This document shows positions 10,278 through 29,803 of a stretch of DNA of 30,957 bases, piece by piece. The stretch is from a virus: positions 1 through 30,957 of the IMG/VR virus record IMGVR_UViG_3300043434_001023. The stretch is one strand, 5' to 3'. Every line of letters begins with the position of its first letter. Position 1 is the stretch's first letter. A program made the translations under genes and the position numbers. The notes beneath the pieces are model-generated. The model had not been told where the DNA came from. It ran no database searches and saw only the letters and a program-made list of their open reading frames with translations.

Positions 10278-11303
10278 TCATGATAAAATTAATGCTGTTT
10301 TTTGACAACATTCTAAATTTAATTGCATTAACGATTGCTCCTTAGCCTTAGCCTCAACCATAATATCTAAATCAGCTACACCGTATGTATTCGGAGTTGC
10401 TAAAATAAAGTCGGCATGAGCCTGCTCCTTGATCTTGGTAAATTCTTTGTATTGTTTGTGGAAGGTGGGCCATTTCGGCAAATCCTCCATTGCAATGTTA
10501 TGATGTTTAAACATTCGTTCTATAAGGGTTTGAGCCTCTCTACGACGGGATTCACTGTAATGGGTACATTGGGTTACACCGTACTTAGTCCACGTCTCGC
10601 GTGCTAAGAAGAATGCTTCTTCTTCGGATAAGTCACCGGTATTGAAAGTATGATGCCAATAGTCAAATGTAATTGGAATACCAATCTCAACATGAAGCAT
10701 TTTATGCAATTCTCGTACGGAATACATAGATGCCTTATCATCATTTTCGATAACTAACCGAGCCTTAACGGAATCTGATAAACGATCATAGTTGTGCAAC
10801 CATCTTGCAATAGTGCTAGGCTTATCACCATATGTAGAACCTACGTGAATATTGATCTTGTTTTCGAAGCTAGGTGCAAAACCCATAAGATCGAAGAGCT
10901 CAGAGTGTCGTTCAAGACTAACGATGCTATTATCAACAACCGCTGCATCAGGACTACCTAAGATATGAAACGGACCAGGGTGCGTTGTAATGCGATGTCC
11001 ATGCGCCTTGGCATAATCACCTGCGGCACGAAGATGCTGTGCAATAAGAGCAATATCCGGCAAATCTGCAAGCTCATAATGGTTCCAACGAGGGAAGAGC
11101 TCAGATCCTAAACGAAACAAGCGAATGCCATTACGTTCATTCCATTGCAGAATAGTCAACAAGTCGCGAGCATTGGCAAGAGCAATGTCGGATGCAAGTT
11201 GCAAACCGCCTAATTTAAATTTGCGATCAATCATGGTGCGACCGGTACGAATACCTTGAGACGACAACTCCATGTTGATACAAGCATAGCCATAACGTAT
11301 CAT
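10278..11303 (-). CDS. uvsE: UV-damage endonuclease, UvdE/UvsE family
   Basis: The 341-residue protein matches the UvdE TIM-barrel family along most of its length. Visible motifs include GYACINMEL near the N-terminus (residues 5-13), FRLGSELFP (63-71), THPGPFHIL (107-115), INIHVGSTYGDK (150-161), LVIENDD (183-189) and FDYWHH (213-218). The metal-binding His, Glu and Asp residues in these motifs are present. UvdE nicks DNA 5' of UV photoproducts and other lesions, starting an alternative excision repair. For a phage this would protect the genome under light. Base composition is visibly more GC-rich than its neighbours, which suggests separate acquisition. A TTTTG-N19-TATAATAT promoter lies upstream. 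Confidence 0.92.
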   Translation of the reverse strand: MIRYGYACINMELSSQGIRTGRTMIDRKFKLGGLQLASDIALANARDLLTILQWNERNGIRLFRLGSELFPRWNHYELADLPDIALIAQHLRAAGDYAKAHGHRITTHPGPFHILGSPDAAVVDNSIVSLERHSELFDLMGFAPSFENKINIHVGSTYGDKPSTIARWLHNYDRLSDSVKARLVIENDDKASMYSVRELHKMLHVEIGIPITFDYWHHTFNTGDLSEEEAFFLARETWTKYGVTQCTHYSESRRREAQTLIERMFKHHNIAMEDLPKWPTFHKQYKEFTKIKEQAHADFILATPNTYGVADLDIMVEAKAKEQSLMQLNLECCQKTALILS

Positions 11304-12769: not shown

Positions 12770-13327
12770 TTAATTAGTTGGCCATAAAAAAACTGTAACG
12801 CCTGAATACATAACATATGTTGTAGTATAAGTAGTGTTAGTATTAGGAAATGTATGAGTTATAGTTGTTTGACTTACACTAACCGCAATACCATATTGAG
12901 TATAATCACCAAGCAACATGTTCTTGTTATGTCCCGGACTTGCTTTCCATTGTTCAAAAAGTTGATTTGCAATATCTTTGCTTGATGGATTATTATCATT
13001 AAAAAATTCTGCAGCATTCTCACCGGTTGTAAAATTTTCAGCTGTTACTGCGTTAGCTTCTTCCAATCGATCACTAACACGCGGAAACTCTGGATGAATA
13101 TGTCCGATAATAGCTTTTATTTGATCATTTTCAACACGCAACGTCGATGCTAAATAATCAGATTGAATCTTTGCAGCCTTTTGAGCATCTGCATTTGTTT
13201 TAAGAGGAGCAACACCATGCTCGGCTCTATGAGCATTTATCAATTTAGTAAATTCTGCTTGAATCTCAGCATTATTAACCTGAGTAAATGCAACGAATGG
13301 AAATAAGATAACTAATAGCTTTTTCAT
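12770..13327 (-). CDS. Secreted CAP-domain (SCP/PR-1-like) protein
   Basis: The 185-residue protein has a signal peptide (MKKLLVILFPFVAFTQ, cut near residue 16). Residues 24-160 form a CAP domain. Visible motifs are LINAHRAEHGVAPL at the first helix, GHIH (75-78), GENAAEFF (102-109), and the signature QWKASPGHNKNML (126-138) followed by YTQYGIAV. The putative cavity residues His75, Glu103, Glu125 and His133 are all present. Bacterial CAP proteins are secreted and mostly of unknown activity. In a phage this is a cargo gene that may alter the host envelope. It has its own TTG-N20-TATATTAA promoter and an AAGAGAGATG start region. Confidence 0.85.
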   Translation of the reverse strand: MKKLLVILFPFVAFTQVNNAEIQAEFTKLINAHRAEHGVAPLKTNADAQKAAKIQSDYLASTLRVENDQIKAIIGHIHPEFPRVSDRLEEANAVTAENFTTGENAAEFFNDNNPSSKDIANQLFEQWKASPGHNKNMLLGDYTQYGIAVSVSQTTITHTFPNTNTTYTTTYVMYSGVTVFLWPTN

Positions 13328-13345
13328 CTCTCTTATTTTATACTA

Positions 13346-14130: not shown

Positions 14131-14544
14131 CTAATAAATAGAAAAGCTTTCAAAGTATTCAACAGATGTTTGGTTTTCTGTTTGAACGAAATAATAACAA
14201 AATATTAAATAACTATCGATACCTCTAATCAAATTGCTTGAATCCTTAAGTAAAACTTTAAATCCATCGCCAACCAATTCTCGAATAATTTCTACAGTGC
14301 CATTAGAAATATTTTCGCCATTTTCATATTCAATAAATGTATTATTAGAAAAATTAATAATAAATCTTTTTGAAATTTTTAAAGTATCACTGATATAAGA
14401 TGGATTTTTGATAACATCATATGGTGTCGTAGTTAATGAATCTTTATTGAAAGTAATAACTTCATACACATTAATGATTTTCAATTGAGCATTACTTGCA
14501 AATGCTATAACCACGAAGATTGTAGAAAGGAATAAATTTTTCAT
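14131..14544 (-). CDS. Secreted/periplasmic hypothetical protein (137 aa)
   Basis: The protein has 137 residues with a clear signal peptide: MKNLFLSTIFVVIAFASNAQ, cleaved probably after NAQ, an ending very common in Bacteroidetes exported proteins. The mature part is beta-rich (LKIINVYEVITF, RFIINFSNNTFIEYENGE), of small lipocalin-like length, but no family was recognised. It has its own promoter and a start region (AAGAGATATG) of the early type. Like the CAP gene it appears to be cargo acting on the host envelope. Confidence 0.7.
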   Translation of the reverse strand: MKNLFLSTIFVVIAFASNAQLKIINVYEVITFNKDSLTTTPYDVIKNPSYISDTLKISKRFIINFSNNTFIEYENGENISNGTVEIIRELVGDGFKVLLKDSSNLIRGIDSYLIFCYYFVQTENQTSVEYFESFSIY

Positions 14545-14562
14545 ATCTCTTATTTTATACTA

Positions 14563-23308: not shown

Positions 23309-23345
23309 ACAGTAGAATCCGACGCCTTTCGACGCCGGATCCTGT
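23309..23345 (-). ncRNA. GAAA-capped 3' UTR hairpin, copy A
   Basis: On the minus strand a 4-bp outer stem (ACAG/CTGT) encloses a 10-bp inner stem (ATCCGGCGTC/GGCGTCGGAT) closed by a GAAA tetraloop. Two G.U pairs of the inner stem would be A.C mismatches in plus-strand RNA, so the element is a minus-strand RNA. It follows the AAA+ ATPase stop by 20 nt. No U-tract follows. CATATCTCTCTC (complement of 23352-23363) lies between stop codon and hairpin. Confidence 0.65.
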
Positions 23346-23364
23346 CATATTGAGAGAGATATGA

Positions 23365-24480: not shown

Positions 24481-24517
24481 GTCCGCATGGGCCAACCTTT
24501 CGATTGACCCTTTGGAC
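24481..24517 (-). ncRNA. GAAA-capped 3' UTR hairpin, copy B
   Basis: On the minus strand a 4-bp outer stem (GTCC/GGAC) and a 9-bp inner stem (GGGTCAATC/GGTTGGCCC) are capped by GAAA. Two G.U pairs would be A.C mismatches on the plus strand. The layout equals copy A at 23309 although the paired bases differ. It follows the 126-aa gene stop by about 21 nt, again with CATATCTCTC between (complement of 24524-24533). Confidence 0.65.
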
Positions 24518-24538
24518 TATATTGAGAGATATGTTACA

Positions 24539-25436: not shown

Positions 25437-25529
25437 TTAGTTATTAATATCAACATACATACACGCCATTACTGCTAATGTGGCTTGAGTCACTATGCGC
25501 TCAAACTCTTCTTGGCTCAACCCATACAT
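25437..25529 (-). CDS. Very small hypothetical protein (30 aa)
   Basis: A 30-residue frame starts MYGLSQEEFERIVTQATLAV. It begins in a TAATG overlap with the stop of the 48-aa membrane gene and ends 10 nt before the 59-aa gene, so the spacing supports a real coupled gene. Mostly one helix. Confidence is limited by size. Confidence 0.45.
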   Translation of the reverse strand: MYGLSQEEFERIVTQATLAVMACMYVDINN

Positions 25530-25675
25530 TATGCTGCGTCTTTAACGGTTAAACAAGCCTGCGTCAATAACATACCAGCGATAATGCCATAACCAATTGG
25601 GTTACCAAATGCTGCGAGGATTCCGCCTACCATCAATCCTGCTACTAATACTAATCCTTTGTCAATTTTTTTCAT
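25529..25675 (-). CDS. Small membrane protein (48 aa)
   Basis: A 48-residue frame starts MKKIDKGLVLVAGLMVGGIL. It has one or two hydrophobic stretches separated by GNPIGYG, with a possible hairpin topology in the inner membrane. It starts with the canonical AATAAGAGATATG leader behind the promoter at 25698. Function unknown. Confidence 0.6.
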   Translation of the reverse strand: MKKIDKGLVLVAGLMVGGILAAFGNPIGYGIIAGMLLTQACLTVKDAA

Positions 25676-25697
25676 ATCTCTTATTTTTTATTATACT

Positions 25698-26542: not shown

Positions 26543-26656
26543 TTAAAACTTTTTTGTCAATGGATTTGGTGTCGGATCCACTATGATGAATATGATACTC
26601 ACCAGTGCTGCAACTATTATCGTGAGTCCCAGCACGCCTACTGCTGCTGCTATCAT
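26543..26656 (-). CDS. Small membrane protein (37 aa)
   Basis: A 37-residue frame starts MIAAAVGVLGLTIIVAALVS, a single hydrophobic helix, and ends PNPLTKKF. It overlaps the stop of the 63-aa gene in ATGA, and its own stop lies in the A-rich block before the next promoter. Both junctions support a real gene. Confidence 0.55.
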   Translation of the reverse strand: MIAAAVGVLGLTIIVAALVSIIFIIVDPTPNPLTKKF

Positions 26657-26844
26657 CTAACGAAGCGTGGGTTTAATGCTGCCTTACGCTCTTGCTCTTC
26701 GCGGTAGATTCGGTTTCTCTCACCTGCTGCTAATGCTGCCTTAACGATTGGGCTAATGCTTTGTGGTTTGCGCGCATCTGAGAAGAATCTTCCTACTACT
26801 GCGTCTTGCTGAAATTTTCCTGAATTCTTTTTGCCTATTGCCAT
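26653..26844 (-). CDS. Small basic hypothetical protein (63 aa)
   Basis: The 63-residue protein is basic (MAIGKKNSGKFQQDAVVGRF; GERNRIYREEQERKAALNPR), mostly helical. It may bind nucleic acid; no family recognised. Leader of 45 nt holds a GGGAA...TTCCC hairpin. Its stop is coupled to the 37-aa membrane gene. Confidence 0.6.
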   Translation of the reverse strand: MAIGKKNSGKFQQDAVVGRFFSDARKPQSISPIVKAALAAGERNRIYREEQERKAALNPRFVR

Positions 26845-26863
26845 TTCTCTTATTTTTTAGGTC

Positions 26864-26877
26864 GGGAACCATTTCCC
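26864..26877 (-). promoter_or_regulatory. 5' leader hairpin of the 63-aa gene
   Basis: GGGAA-ATGG-TTCCC on the minus strand just after the promoter at 26890. Identical to the hairpin at 27748. Confidence 0.55.
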
Positions 26878-26889
26878 TTTTTGCTTATA

Positions 26890-27721: not shown

Positions 27722-27747
27722 CGCTCTTATTTTTTAAATTTAACTTC

Positions 27748-27761
27748 GGGAACCATTTCCC
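27748..27761 (-). promoter_or_regulatory. 5' leader hairpin of the 64-aa gene
   Basis: GGGAA-ATGG-TTCCC on the minus strand, shortly after the promoter at 27774. Confidence 0.55.
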
Positions 27762-27773
27762 TTTCTCCTTATA

Positions 27774-28010: not shown

Positions 28011-28169
28011 TTAGTTTTCTAATTGGTAAATGGTTTCATTAATGGCACCAATCAAGTACCCGTAGCAATATGCTGCTGCTGATGGTCCTTGCTCTTCCCA
28101 CTTCGCATCCGTAGCAGCTAATGCCTTTCTTAACGTTTCGGCTAATGCTTTCTTTTGTGCTTTTGTCAT
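28011..28169 (-). CDS. Small helical hypothetical protein (52 aa)
   Basis: A 52-residue frame starts MTKAQKKALAETLRKALAAT and ends YGYLIGAINETIYQLEN. It has the classic AATAAGAGATATG start region behind the promoter at 28192 and runs 5 nt short of the 60-aa gene. Function unknown. Confidence 0.6.
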   Translation of the reverse strand: MTKAQKKALAETLRKALAATDAKWEEQGPSAAAYCYGYLIGAINETIYQLEN

Positions 28170-28191
28170 ATCTCTTATTTTTTAATATACT

Positions 28192-28699: not shown

Positions 28700-28855
28700 T
28701 TAATAACCAATTAAATCAATAGCCATTTCCCCAGTTCCAATCCCATTATAAGTTATTTCATAGTTAGGATCCATTCCACTCATCATAATATCATCTATCA
28801 ACTCATTAGTTGTGTTGAATTCCTTTTTATAATAATCACACTTTAAACTATACAT
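28700..28855 (-). CDS. Small hypothetical protein (51 aa)
   Basis: A 51-residue frame starts MYSLKCDYYKKEFNTTNELI and ends GEMAIDLIGY. It has the AATAAGAGATATG start region behind the first early promoter. The pattern of a short strand, helix and two strands suggests a small alpha-beta fold. Function unknown. Confidence 0.6.
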   Translation of the reverse strand: MYSLKCDYYKKEFNTTNELIDDIMMSGMDPNYEITYNGIGTGEMAIDLIGY

Positions 28856-28877
28856 ATCTCTTATTTTTTAATTTACA

Positions 28878-29023: not shown

Positions 29024-29056
29024 AAAAAAAGGGAGCCACCTTAAAGGTTGACTCCC
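29024..29056 (-). terminator. Rho-independent terminator of the candidate small RNA
   Basis: The minus strand folds GGGAGTCA against TGGCTCCC (8 bp with one G.U) and is followed by seven T. Nothing like a protein gene precedes it for 150 nt, so it ends a non-coding or leader-type RNA. Confidence 0.85.
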
Positions 29057-29205
29057 TACGTGCGCGCCTGGGAAATAAGAGAGAGAAACCAGGTCTAGCG
29101 AATGTCGGCCGGGTTGAGGTGTTCGTCGTGCCGCCAACAGAGAACATCGACTGTGGTTACAACCCGGCACTATATAGGGAAGGTCCTGCCAACGCAGGAT
29201 CCCTT

Positions 29206-29286
29206 CTAACGTTTCAATTCTTTTACAATGCCTACTACAAGCAAGGTCGATATGGCCGCTACGGCAATGTATCCAATGATTTCCAT
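29206..29286 (-). CDS. 26-aa membrane peptide
   Basis: ATG at 29286 opens a 26-residue frame, MEIIGYIAVAAISTLLVVGI then VKELKR, a single hydrophobic helix with a basic end. AAAAAGGA lies 6-12 nt before it as a ribosome-binding sequence. It starts soon after a TTG-N20-TATAATAT promoter and ends just before the structured RNA region. It could be a leader peptide or the coding part of a dual-function RNA. Confidence 0.45.
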   Translation of the reverse strand: MEIIGYIAVAAISTLLVVGIVKELKR

Positions 29287-29304
29287 CTTTTCCTTTTTAC
29301 TCTT

Positions 29305-29335
29305 ATATTATATGAAATATATATCCCGAATCCAA
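29305..29335 (-). promoter_or_regulatory. Promoter of the candidate small RNA
   Basis: TTG (29333-29335), 20 nt, TATAATAT (29305-29312) on the minus strand. TTTCATATAATATAA is identical to the UvdE promoter context. Confidence 0.55.
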
Positions 29336-29345
29336 GCGCTAACGT

Positions 29346-29803
29346 CTAAAAGTAACGGCAAATGTTTACTCTCAATAGCTAGTAAACCGAATCAAAACCT
29401 AAAAATAGCACCTAAAAATGAGGCCTCTTCTAAAAATAGGACGGCAAATAAACTAAAAATAAACGGCTATTGCTCTAAAAATACCCTAAAAATAACACAT
29501 AATGGACTAAAAATAGACGCATTCAGAACCATATATATAACGCAACGCATCGTGGACTAAAAATAGATGGTATTGAAATTACTATATATAGAGACGCATA
29601 ATGGACTAAAAATAGAACGCACTTTGGACTAAAAATAAACCAGGCTGGGAGGAGATGGCCATTCGGTCTAAAAATAAGACATTGTGGCCCTTTTGGACTA
29701 AAAATAAAAGACCTTGTTAGACTGCGTTTAAGAACATTGACCGGGTCTAGGATGCAAGATATCCACCCGCTAGGCAATAAAGAGCATACGCCCCGTAAAA
29801 ATA
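29346..29803 (+). repeat. Array of CTAAAAATA direct repeats (iteron-like)
   Basis: Eleven exact copies of CTAAAAATA, all in one orientation, start at 29399, 29430, 29453, 29475, 29486, 29507, 29557, 29606, 29629, 29668 and 29698. One-mismatch variants are at 29346, 29412 and 29795. Five copies (29507, 29557, 29606, 29629, 29698) extend to GGACTAAAAATA. Spacers are unrelated in sequence, so the unit, not a larger block, is conserved. No gene lies here. An origin, partition site or protein-binding array is inferred. Confidence 0.85.

Follow-up and report, generated by a model that had tools for sequence, protein, structure and literature searches.

By all sequence signs, a phage family known from environmental sequence makes a small structured RNA with an exposed loop that is complementary to the starts of early genes of the same phage, so that a single RNA could switch off many of them at once. 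The RNA was found in a virus record of 30,957 bases (the whole stretch of DNA that was analysed, called the window here), which is a piece of a T4-like phage; its genes include some for a T4-like baseplate, one for a clamp-loader-like protein and one for a sigma factor. A UV-endonuclease gene, UvdE, is also present (window 10278-11303), and no tRNA or tmRNA was detected within the window. The best reading, and in our judgement probably the right one, is that of an antisense RNA with multiple targets, which represses the translation of early genes; its expression, its timing, its pairing in the cell and the repression itself are what we infer from these features.

The unit lies on the minus strand (29335-29024). 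The preliminary description of this DNA had proposed a promoter, a 26-aa frame, four stem-loops and a terminator, and all of these were located in the positions given for them. Counts per RNA refer to a set of 18, from which near-identical or same-phage contigs (L002/L027, L009/L010, L013/L026, L015, L017) were omitted.

29305..29335, minus strand: predicted promoter of the RNA, TTGG-N19-TATAATAT (equivalent to TTG-N20-TATAATAT); a loose pattern matches 18/18 RNAs
29206..29286, minus strand: 26-aa hydrophobic frame MEIIGYIAVAAISTLLVVGIVKELKR, with AAAAAGGAAAAG preceding its ATG; a similar frame in 13/18 RNAs
29177..29205, minus strand: module B hairpin AAGGGATCC...GGACCTTCCC, from the fold; similar by eye in L004, L011, L020 and L023
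29107..29168, minus strand: module C stem with the internal loop AACCACA / AACAC, invariant in 9/9 aligned RNAs
29067..29093, minus strand: anti-start hairpin with the loop UUUCUCUCUCUUAUUUC; core identical in 21/21 aligned hairpins, stems covarying
29024..29056, minus strand: intrinsic terminator, from the predicted fold

From predicted start to predicted end, the unit would encode a phage RNA of ~230-480 nt. The 5' end of the RNA often holds a short frame for a membrane peptide; structured modules come next, and then one or two stable hairpins, in which a pyrimidine-rich loop would be kept open. The distance from promoter to hairpin was 194-422 nt across the 18 RNAs. A terminator hairpin with a T-run was seen by eye in most RNAs, and was not evident in L016 and L068; in several relatives (L004, L006, L008, L011, L014 and L031 among others) the terminator hairpin doubles as the carrier of the anti-start loop. 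As judged from sequence, the unit thus has the own promoter and the intrinsic terminator that are general to trans-acting small RNAs. In module C, for which the alignment consists of the 9 of 14 searched RNAs that matched the pattern of the script, the outer stem was 91.4% paired, double changes were present in 9/9 pairs, and the covariation score was reached by 0/500 shuffles. Scanned against Rfam at the gathering score, the window and five relatives gave no match apart from two tRNAs in L004. The c4 family is included in Rfam, and its model was not matched.

The dual function that had been proposed for the RNA held in part: a hydrophobic frame of 24-30 aa was present near the 5' end of the 13 RNAs counted above and absent from the other 5/18. 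Between the closely related frames of L014 and L018, 5 synonymous and 1 non-synonymous changes were counted, and between those of L020 and L023, 4 synonymous and 5 non-synonymous; with both types of change occurring in such pairs, selection on the peptide is not established. Upstream of the RNA promoter, eleven copies of TATTTTTAG were observed (window 29407-29706, minus strand), with similar repeats at this place in relatives. They may be iterons of an origin, or else an enhancer array.

The hairpin before the terminator was present exactly as first described, CCTGG-UUUCUCUCUCUUAUUUC-CCAGG, and the covarying stem that had been suggested as a check was recovered in relatives: the loop core CUCUCUUA was identical in 21/21 aligned hairpins (mean column identity 66%), and the stems differed while staying paired. 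The 20 hairpins in register had a mean of 8.6 contiguous stem pairs, vs 3.5 after the arms were swapped between genomes. The third pair counted from the loop was U-A in 9 hairpins, G-C in 9 and G-U in 2. The alignment omits the first hairpin of L018 and those of L019, L020, L023 and L022, and the stem count additionally omits the first hairpin of L014, these being short, bulged, changed or duplicate. Several genomes carry two anti-start hairpins, the second of which is the terminator. The loops of L022 are changed, to UUUCUCUCUUU and AUCUCUC, and still match AAAGAGAGA and GAGAGAU leaders. Among the 18 RNAs compared, none was seen in which the stem was retained and the complementarity lost, which is the outcome that had been named in advance as speaking against the proposal. 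A chance hairpin is ruled out by this conservation. For the window, a terminator-only reading of the hairpin is likewise ruled out, because a distinct terminator follows it.

In fold predictions, the core CUCUCUU was unpaired at a probability of at least 0.8 in 20/26 copies (L008 was cut off before its second hairpin in these folds). When the window RNA was folded at full length, its loop was partly paired with the start of the peptide frame of the same RNA (mean unpaired probability 0.57), and in the full-length fold of L041 the loop again paired with the peptide start (unpaired probability 0.28). A conserved, accessible seed complementary to targets, as is expected of a small regulatory RNA, is thus present in the family, and in the window and L041 it may be partly hidden.

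A sigma-factor search of viral contigs yielded 25 loci, 20 of which carried a hairpin-bearing RNA at the equivalent position, upstream of the sigma gene, each with a promoter of the type TTGG-N19-TATAnTATA, structured modules and one or two hairpins. Included in this count are L022, with its altered loops, and L002, which does not differ from the window at this place. No hairpin was seen in L003, L013 and L021; only 2.5, 0.6 and 1.7 kb of these contigs precede the sigma gene, and they probably end before the place of the hairpin is reached. The hairpin was absent from the most distant relatives, L024 and L025 (57% sigma identity), which retain leaders of the AAGAGATATG type. In L025 the bases CTCTCTTA occur once on the RNA strand (~5017), as a base match considered apart from any hairpin context. 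A different, apparently structured RNA lies behind the same type of promoter in L025 (5770-5990), and a second, half copy of the hairpin, with the loop and 3' arm only, was noted downstream of the RNA in L016 (3524). A further relative by its sigma factor, L068, comes from a bacterial MAG contig, the label of which (Helicobacteraceae) is probably due to mis-binning.

When viral contigs were scanned with the DNA pattern of the hairpin, 18 stretches were retrieved, 15 of them within this phage group; the other three (L029, L030, L035), in unrelated sequence, look like chance matches. A scan with the upstream module A, in which the loop was not used, retrieved 16 stretches, all from contigs of this group. 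The shorter, 16-base hairpin pattern of clade B retrieved 12 stretches, 4 in the group and 8 apparently by chance, so this short pattern is uninformative on specificity. DNA comparison revealed no close isolate phage, just short weak matches to Enterococcus phages, and the closest named baseplate proteins had 42-53% identity. The hairpin pattern was absent from the whole records of Immuto and Mel-JY01; in the 50 kb examined of each, AAGAGA was found before 1/70 and 0/67 starts, respectively. The hosts are probably Bacteroidota, to which Immuto, the phage-encoded ribosomal protein bS21 and PMC9723584 point.

Three starts in the window (28855, 28169 and 25675) had been reported to be preceded by an exact 10-nt complement of the loop, AAATAAGAGA. 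This was borne out, and the number of such starts is actually six: the coding strand holds six copies of AAATAAGAGA, each directly preceding a start (28855, 28169, 26844, 25675, 14544 and 13327), and the single copy on the other strand is the complement of the loop itself. The predicted targets, all exact complements, are:

28856..28866, minus strand: leader AAATAAGAGAT of gene 28700-28855 (10-nt exact complement; duplex -10.5, with 2/200 shuffled loops equally good)
28170..28180, minus strand: leader of gene 28011-28169 (exact complement and duplex energy)
26845..26855, minus strand: leader of gene 26653-26844 (exact complement and duplex energy)
25676..25686, minus strand: leader of gene 25529-25675 (exact complement and duplex energy)
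14545..14555, minus strand: leader of gene 14131-14544 (exact complement and duplex energy)
13328..13338, minus strand: leader of the CAP-domain gene 12770-13327 (duplex -17.5, with 1/200 shuffled loops equally good)

An example of an early leader is AAATAAGAGATATG. With the early block defined as the starts beyond 22,900, the mean duplex energy with the loop was -10.3 kcal/mol at the 14 early-block starts vs -4.1 at 23 others (Mann-Whitney p 1.4e-4); an alternative grouping that counts 13327 and 14544 as early (-10.8, n=16 vs -3.1, n=21, p 3e-6) is circular. Strong pairing outside the early block was predicted for 13327, 14544, 4882 (-14.6) and 19075 (-10.4). The early starts 25426 and 26487 paired no better than with shuffled loops (62/200 and 70/200). 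The mean match of the window was reached by 19/300 dinucleotide-preserving loop shuffles. The CAP-domain gene 12770-13327 has an early-type leader and lies outside the early block.

Across genomes, leaders were chosen by an early promoter and the first ATG, blind to the sequence of the leader, and L041 was excluded from the leader counts. The choice of the first ATG misplaces a few starts behind small hairpins, which lowers the match. Small hairpins such as GGGAAATGGTTCCC, GGGAATATTCCC and GGCAATGTTGCC occupy the interval from early promoter to leader in the window (~26860-26880 and ~27745-27765) and in L014, L018 and L019; their stems vary, and they are maybe a protein-binding site. In 17 genomes, 169/197 promoter-linked early leaders had at least 7 nt, and 147/197 at least 8 nt, of contiguous complementarity to the loops of their own genome. 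Depending on the genome, between 0 and 30 of 300 dinucleotide-kept loop shuffles did as well as the observed mean. By composition alone, chance is thus excluded only moderately, and the case rests on conservation.

The matching starts are concentrated in the early block. In G002, a loop match of at least 7 nt was found at 17/211 ORF starts, none of which is more than 25 kb away from the hairpin (0/145 elsewhere, p 5e-10); in G004, it was found at 15/218, 11 within 25 kb and 4 beyond (p 0.0013). Genome-wide, the counts at 7 nt or more were not unusual, as shuffled loops reached them in 90/200 (G002) and 33/200 (G004) cases, and those at 8 nt or more were unusual (2/200 and 8/200). Loop-complement 8-mers on the early strand of two 160-kb records lay just upstream of an ATG in 20/22 and 18/19 instances, vs 1/7 and 0/1 on the opposite strand (G002, G004). 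A Shine-Dalgarno-like motif was found at 0/17 of the loop-matching starts of G002 vs 54/194 of its other starts.

A swap of loops and leaders between clades revealed no genome-specific co-evolution. Clade-A loops scored 8.76 on A leaders and 7.04 on B leaders, and clade-B loops 7.55 on A leaders and 6.74 on B leaders. As clade-A loops fit the B leaders as well as the B loops do, genome-specific coupling was tested and is not supported. Leaders with AAATAAGAGA made up 0/31 in clade B vs 56/151 in clade A, and leaders with GAGAGTT 8/31 vs 1/151; clade-B loops lack UAUUU, and some read ACUCUCUU. It is suggestive that loop and leader sequences of clade B shift in step, as a single evolutionary event, and L022 shows the opposite, having kept AAATAAGAGA in 4/15 leaders though its loop lost UAUUU.

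A second anti-start sequence, CAUAUCUCUC, occurs in a cis element, in the 3' UTR of the clamp-loader-like gene and in four of the RNAs. In these three settings besides the main loop, ACAUAUCUCUC is the complement of GAGAGAUAUGU plus AUG. The two elements outside the RNA are, in the window:

24481..24534, minus strand: E5 element, with anti-start ACATATCTCTC and, after it, a GNRA hairpin (script search and folds)
23314..23364, minus strand: E3 element, in the 3' UTR that follows the clamp-loader-like gene, with anti-start TCATATCTCTC and a strong hairpin

E5 was found by script in 16/18 genomes, and in 14 of these 16 a leader and an ATG lie directly downstream; the copy of L003 was seen by eye and missed by the script, and none was found in L004. 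In most of the E5 folds, the anti-start sequence pairs with the downstream leader and the AUG of the next gene. A paired change was noted in L012, AUGUCUCUC with GAGACAUG. In the window E5 is retained and the downstream leader is lost. As modelled, the anti-start sequence is able to pair with the downstream start region, a switching function is putative, and E5 is a conserved structured element and a candidate cis-regulatory RNA. CUGAUGA is the core of the hammerhead; by eye it is missing from E5, and a hammerhead-like reading was rejected. The RNAs that carry the second anti-start sequence are those of L005, L007, L012 and L016, with L007 having it as AUGUCUCUC.

In the proposed mechanism, the loop is complementary to an address in the start region that is common to the early genes (AAAUAAGAGAUAUG and AAAAAGAGAGAUAUG). 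It would nucleate in trans on the A/G-rich leader, covering the bases just before the AUG; this coverage would block 30S binding, and the early block would be turned down as infection proceeds. E5 puts the same kind of complementarity where a start would be hidden, which favours repression. Phage-encoded bS21 was found in 7/9 records (G001-G004, G006, G012, G013), the misses being the 31-kb window and a 68-kb fragment. Together, the RNA acting as proposed here and a phage bS21 might form the two arms of a switch between early and late translation. We put forward more tentatively, and would not expect it to hold in full, a wider reading in which translational shut-off across the whole phage group follows one code, the start address of the early genes, its complement being placed in a dedicated RNA that presents one or two loops, in E5 and in the clamp-loader 3' UTR, and in which the RNA would silence early translation globally while bS21 re-tunes the host ribosomes for late mRNAs.

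The loop might act mainly in cis, pairing with the 5' end of its own RNA to control the membrane peptide, with the other matches reflecting a shared type of leader. The folds of the window and L041 described above would agree with this, as would the occurrence of AAATAAGA within the first 40 nt of 6/18 RNAs. We nevertheless consider cis action improbable, since 12/18 RNAs lack AAATAAGA there and the hydrophobic peptide is not universal, whereas a loop with matches to starts is retained in every one of the 18, the leaders of L041 being outside the counts; the unpaired CUCUCUU core of most copies argues in the same direction. The loop might instead be a CU-rich binding site for a protein, or the modules of the RNA might act on the ribosome or on a phage protein, the complementarity being a by-product of low complexity. 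Loop and leaders indeed both have low complexity; with shuffled loops, the mean match length is still ~64-82% of that observed, and module C likewise has invariant unpaired bases. However, the loop-complement 8-mers occur almost only before ATGs, and the changed loops of L022 still fit 8/15 of its own leaders at 7 nt or more, and little likelihood is given to this explanation.

The pairing evidence is silent on the sign of the effect, and the RNA might activate or protect the early mRNAs, or the leaders might titrate it as a sponge. These options are also judged unlikely, because the bases covered by the complement immediately precede the AUG, and because in E5 a similar pairing surrounds a start in cis; inhibition is to be expected from both. 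Repression of many early genes in trans by one antisense RNA remains the reading that we favour.

Among known phage RNAs, the closest in kind is the c4 antisense RNA of P1/P7, with loops that are presumed to base-pair with a phage mRNA around its ribosome-binding site (PMC12197685); the loop in the window is also complementary to the ribosome-binding region. As listed in that review, c4 has one target, ant, in temperate phages (PMC12197685), whereas here the target sequence is common to many early mRNAs, and a promoter of its own is predicted for the RNA. The RNAs sar (P22) and OOP and aQ (lambda) are similarly phage antisense RNAs acting on phage mRNAs; as summarised there, sar acts in trans and OOP and aQ in cis, on single targets and without a start address shared by many genes (PMC12197685). 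IsrK (Gifsy-1) is likewise RNA and mRNA in one (PMC12197685), but has another target and mechanism, and the peptide here is not present in every RNA (13/18). This 2025 review of phage small RNAs describes c4, sar, OOP, aQ and further RNAs as having single targets in the phage, or targets in the host, and its table has no RNA aimed at a start address common to many early genes (PMC12197685). In freshwater Bacteroidetes phages, which are probably similar to the phages here, a role for bS21 in favouring the translation of late phage mRNAs has been put forward (PMC9723584); bS21 is a ribosomal protein and not an RNA, and the term small RNA is absent from the main text of that paper. Among open-licence full texts, no report was found of an RNA directed at such an address of multiple early genes. 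The RNA is taken here as a variant of phage antisense RNA, a kind of which c4 of P1 is an example.

Phages switch from early to late genes by means of transcription factors, nucleases and repressor proteins. In T4, the protein RegA acts as a translational repressor on the start regions of many early phage mRNAs; in the present case recognition would be by an RNA instead of a protein. An RNA recognising one common start address, and able to silence the early block, would be the RNA counterpart of T4 RegA, and its loop and leaders form a pair that is suited to a clean compensatory-mutation test. Bacteroidota ribosomes have been described as using no Shine-Dalgarno pairing (PMC9976891). With hosts that probably belong to this group, the RNA would therefore bear on how start sites are chosen there.
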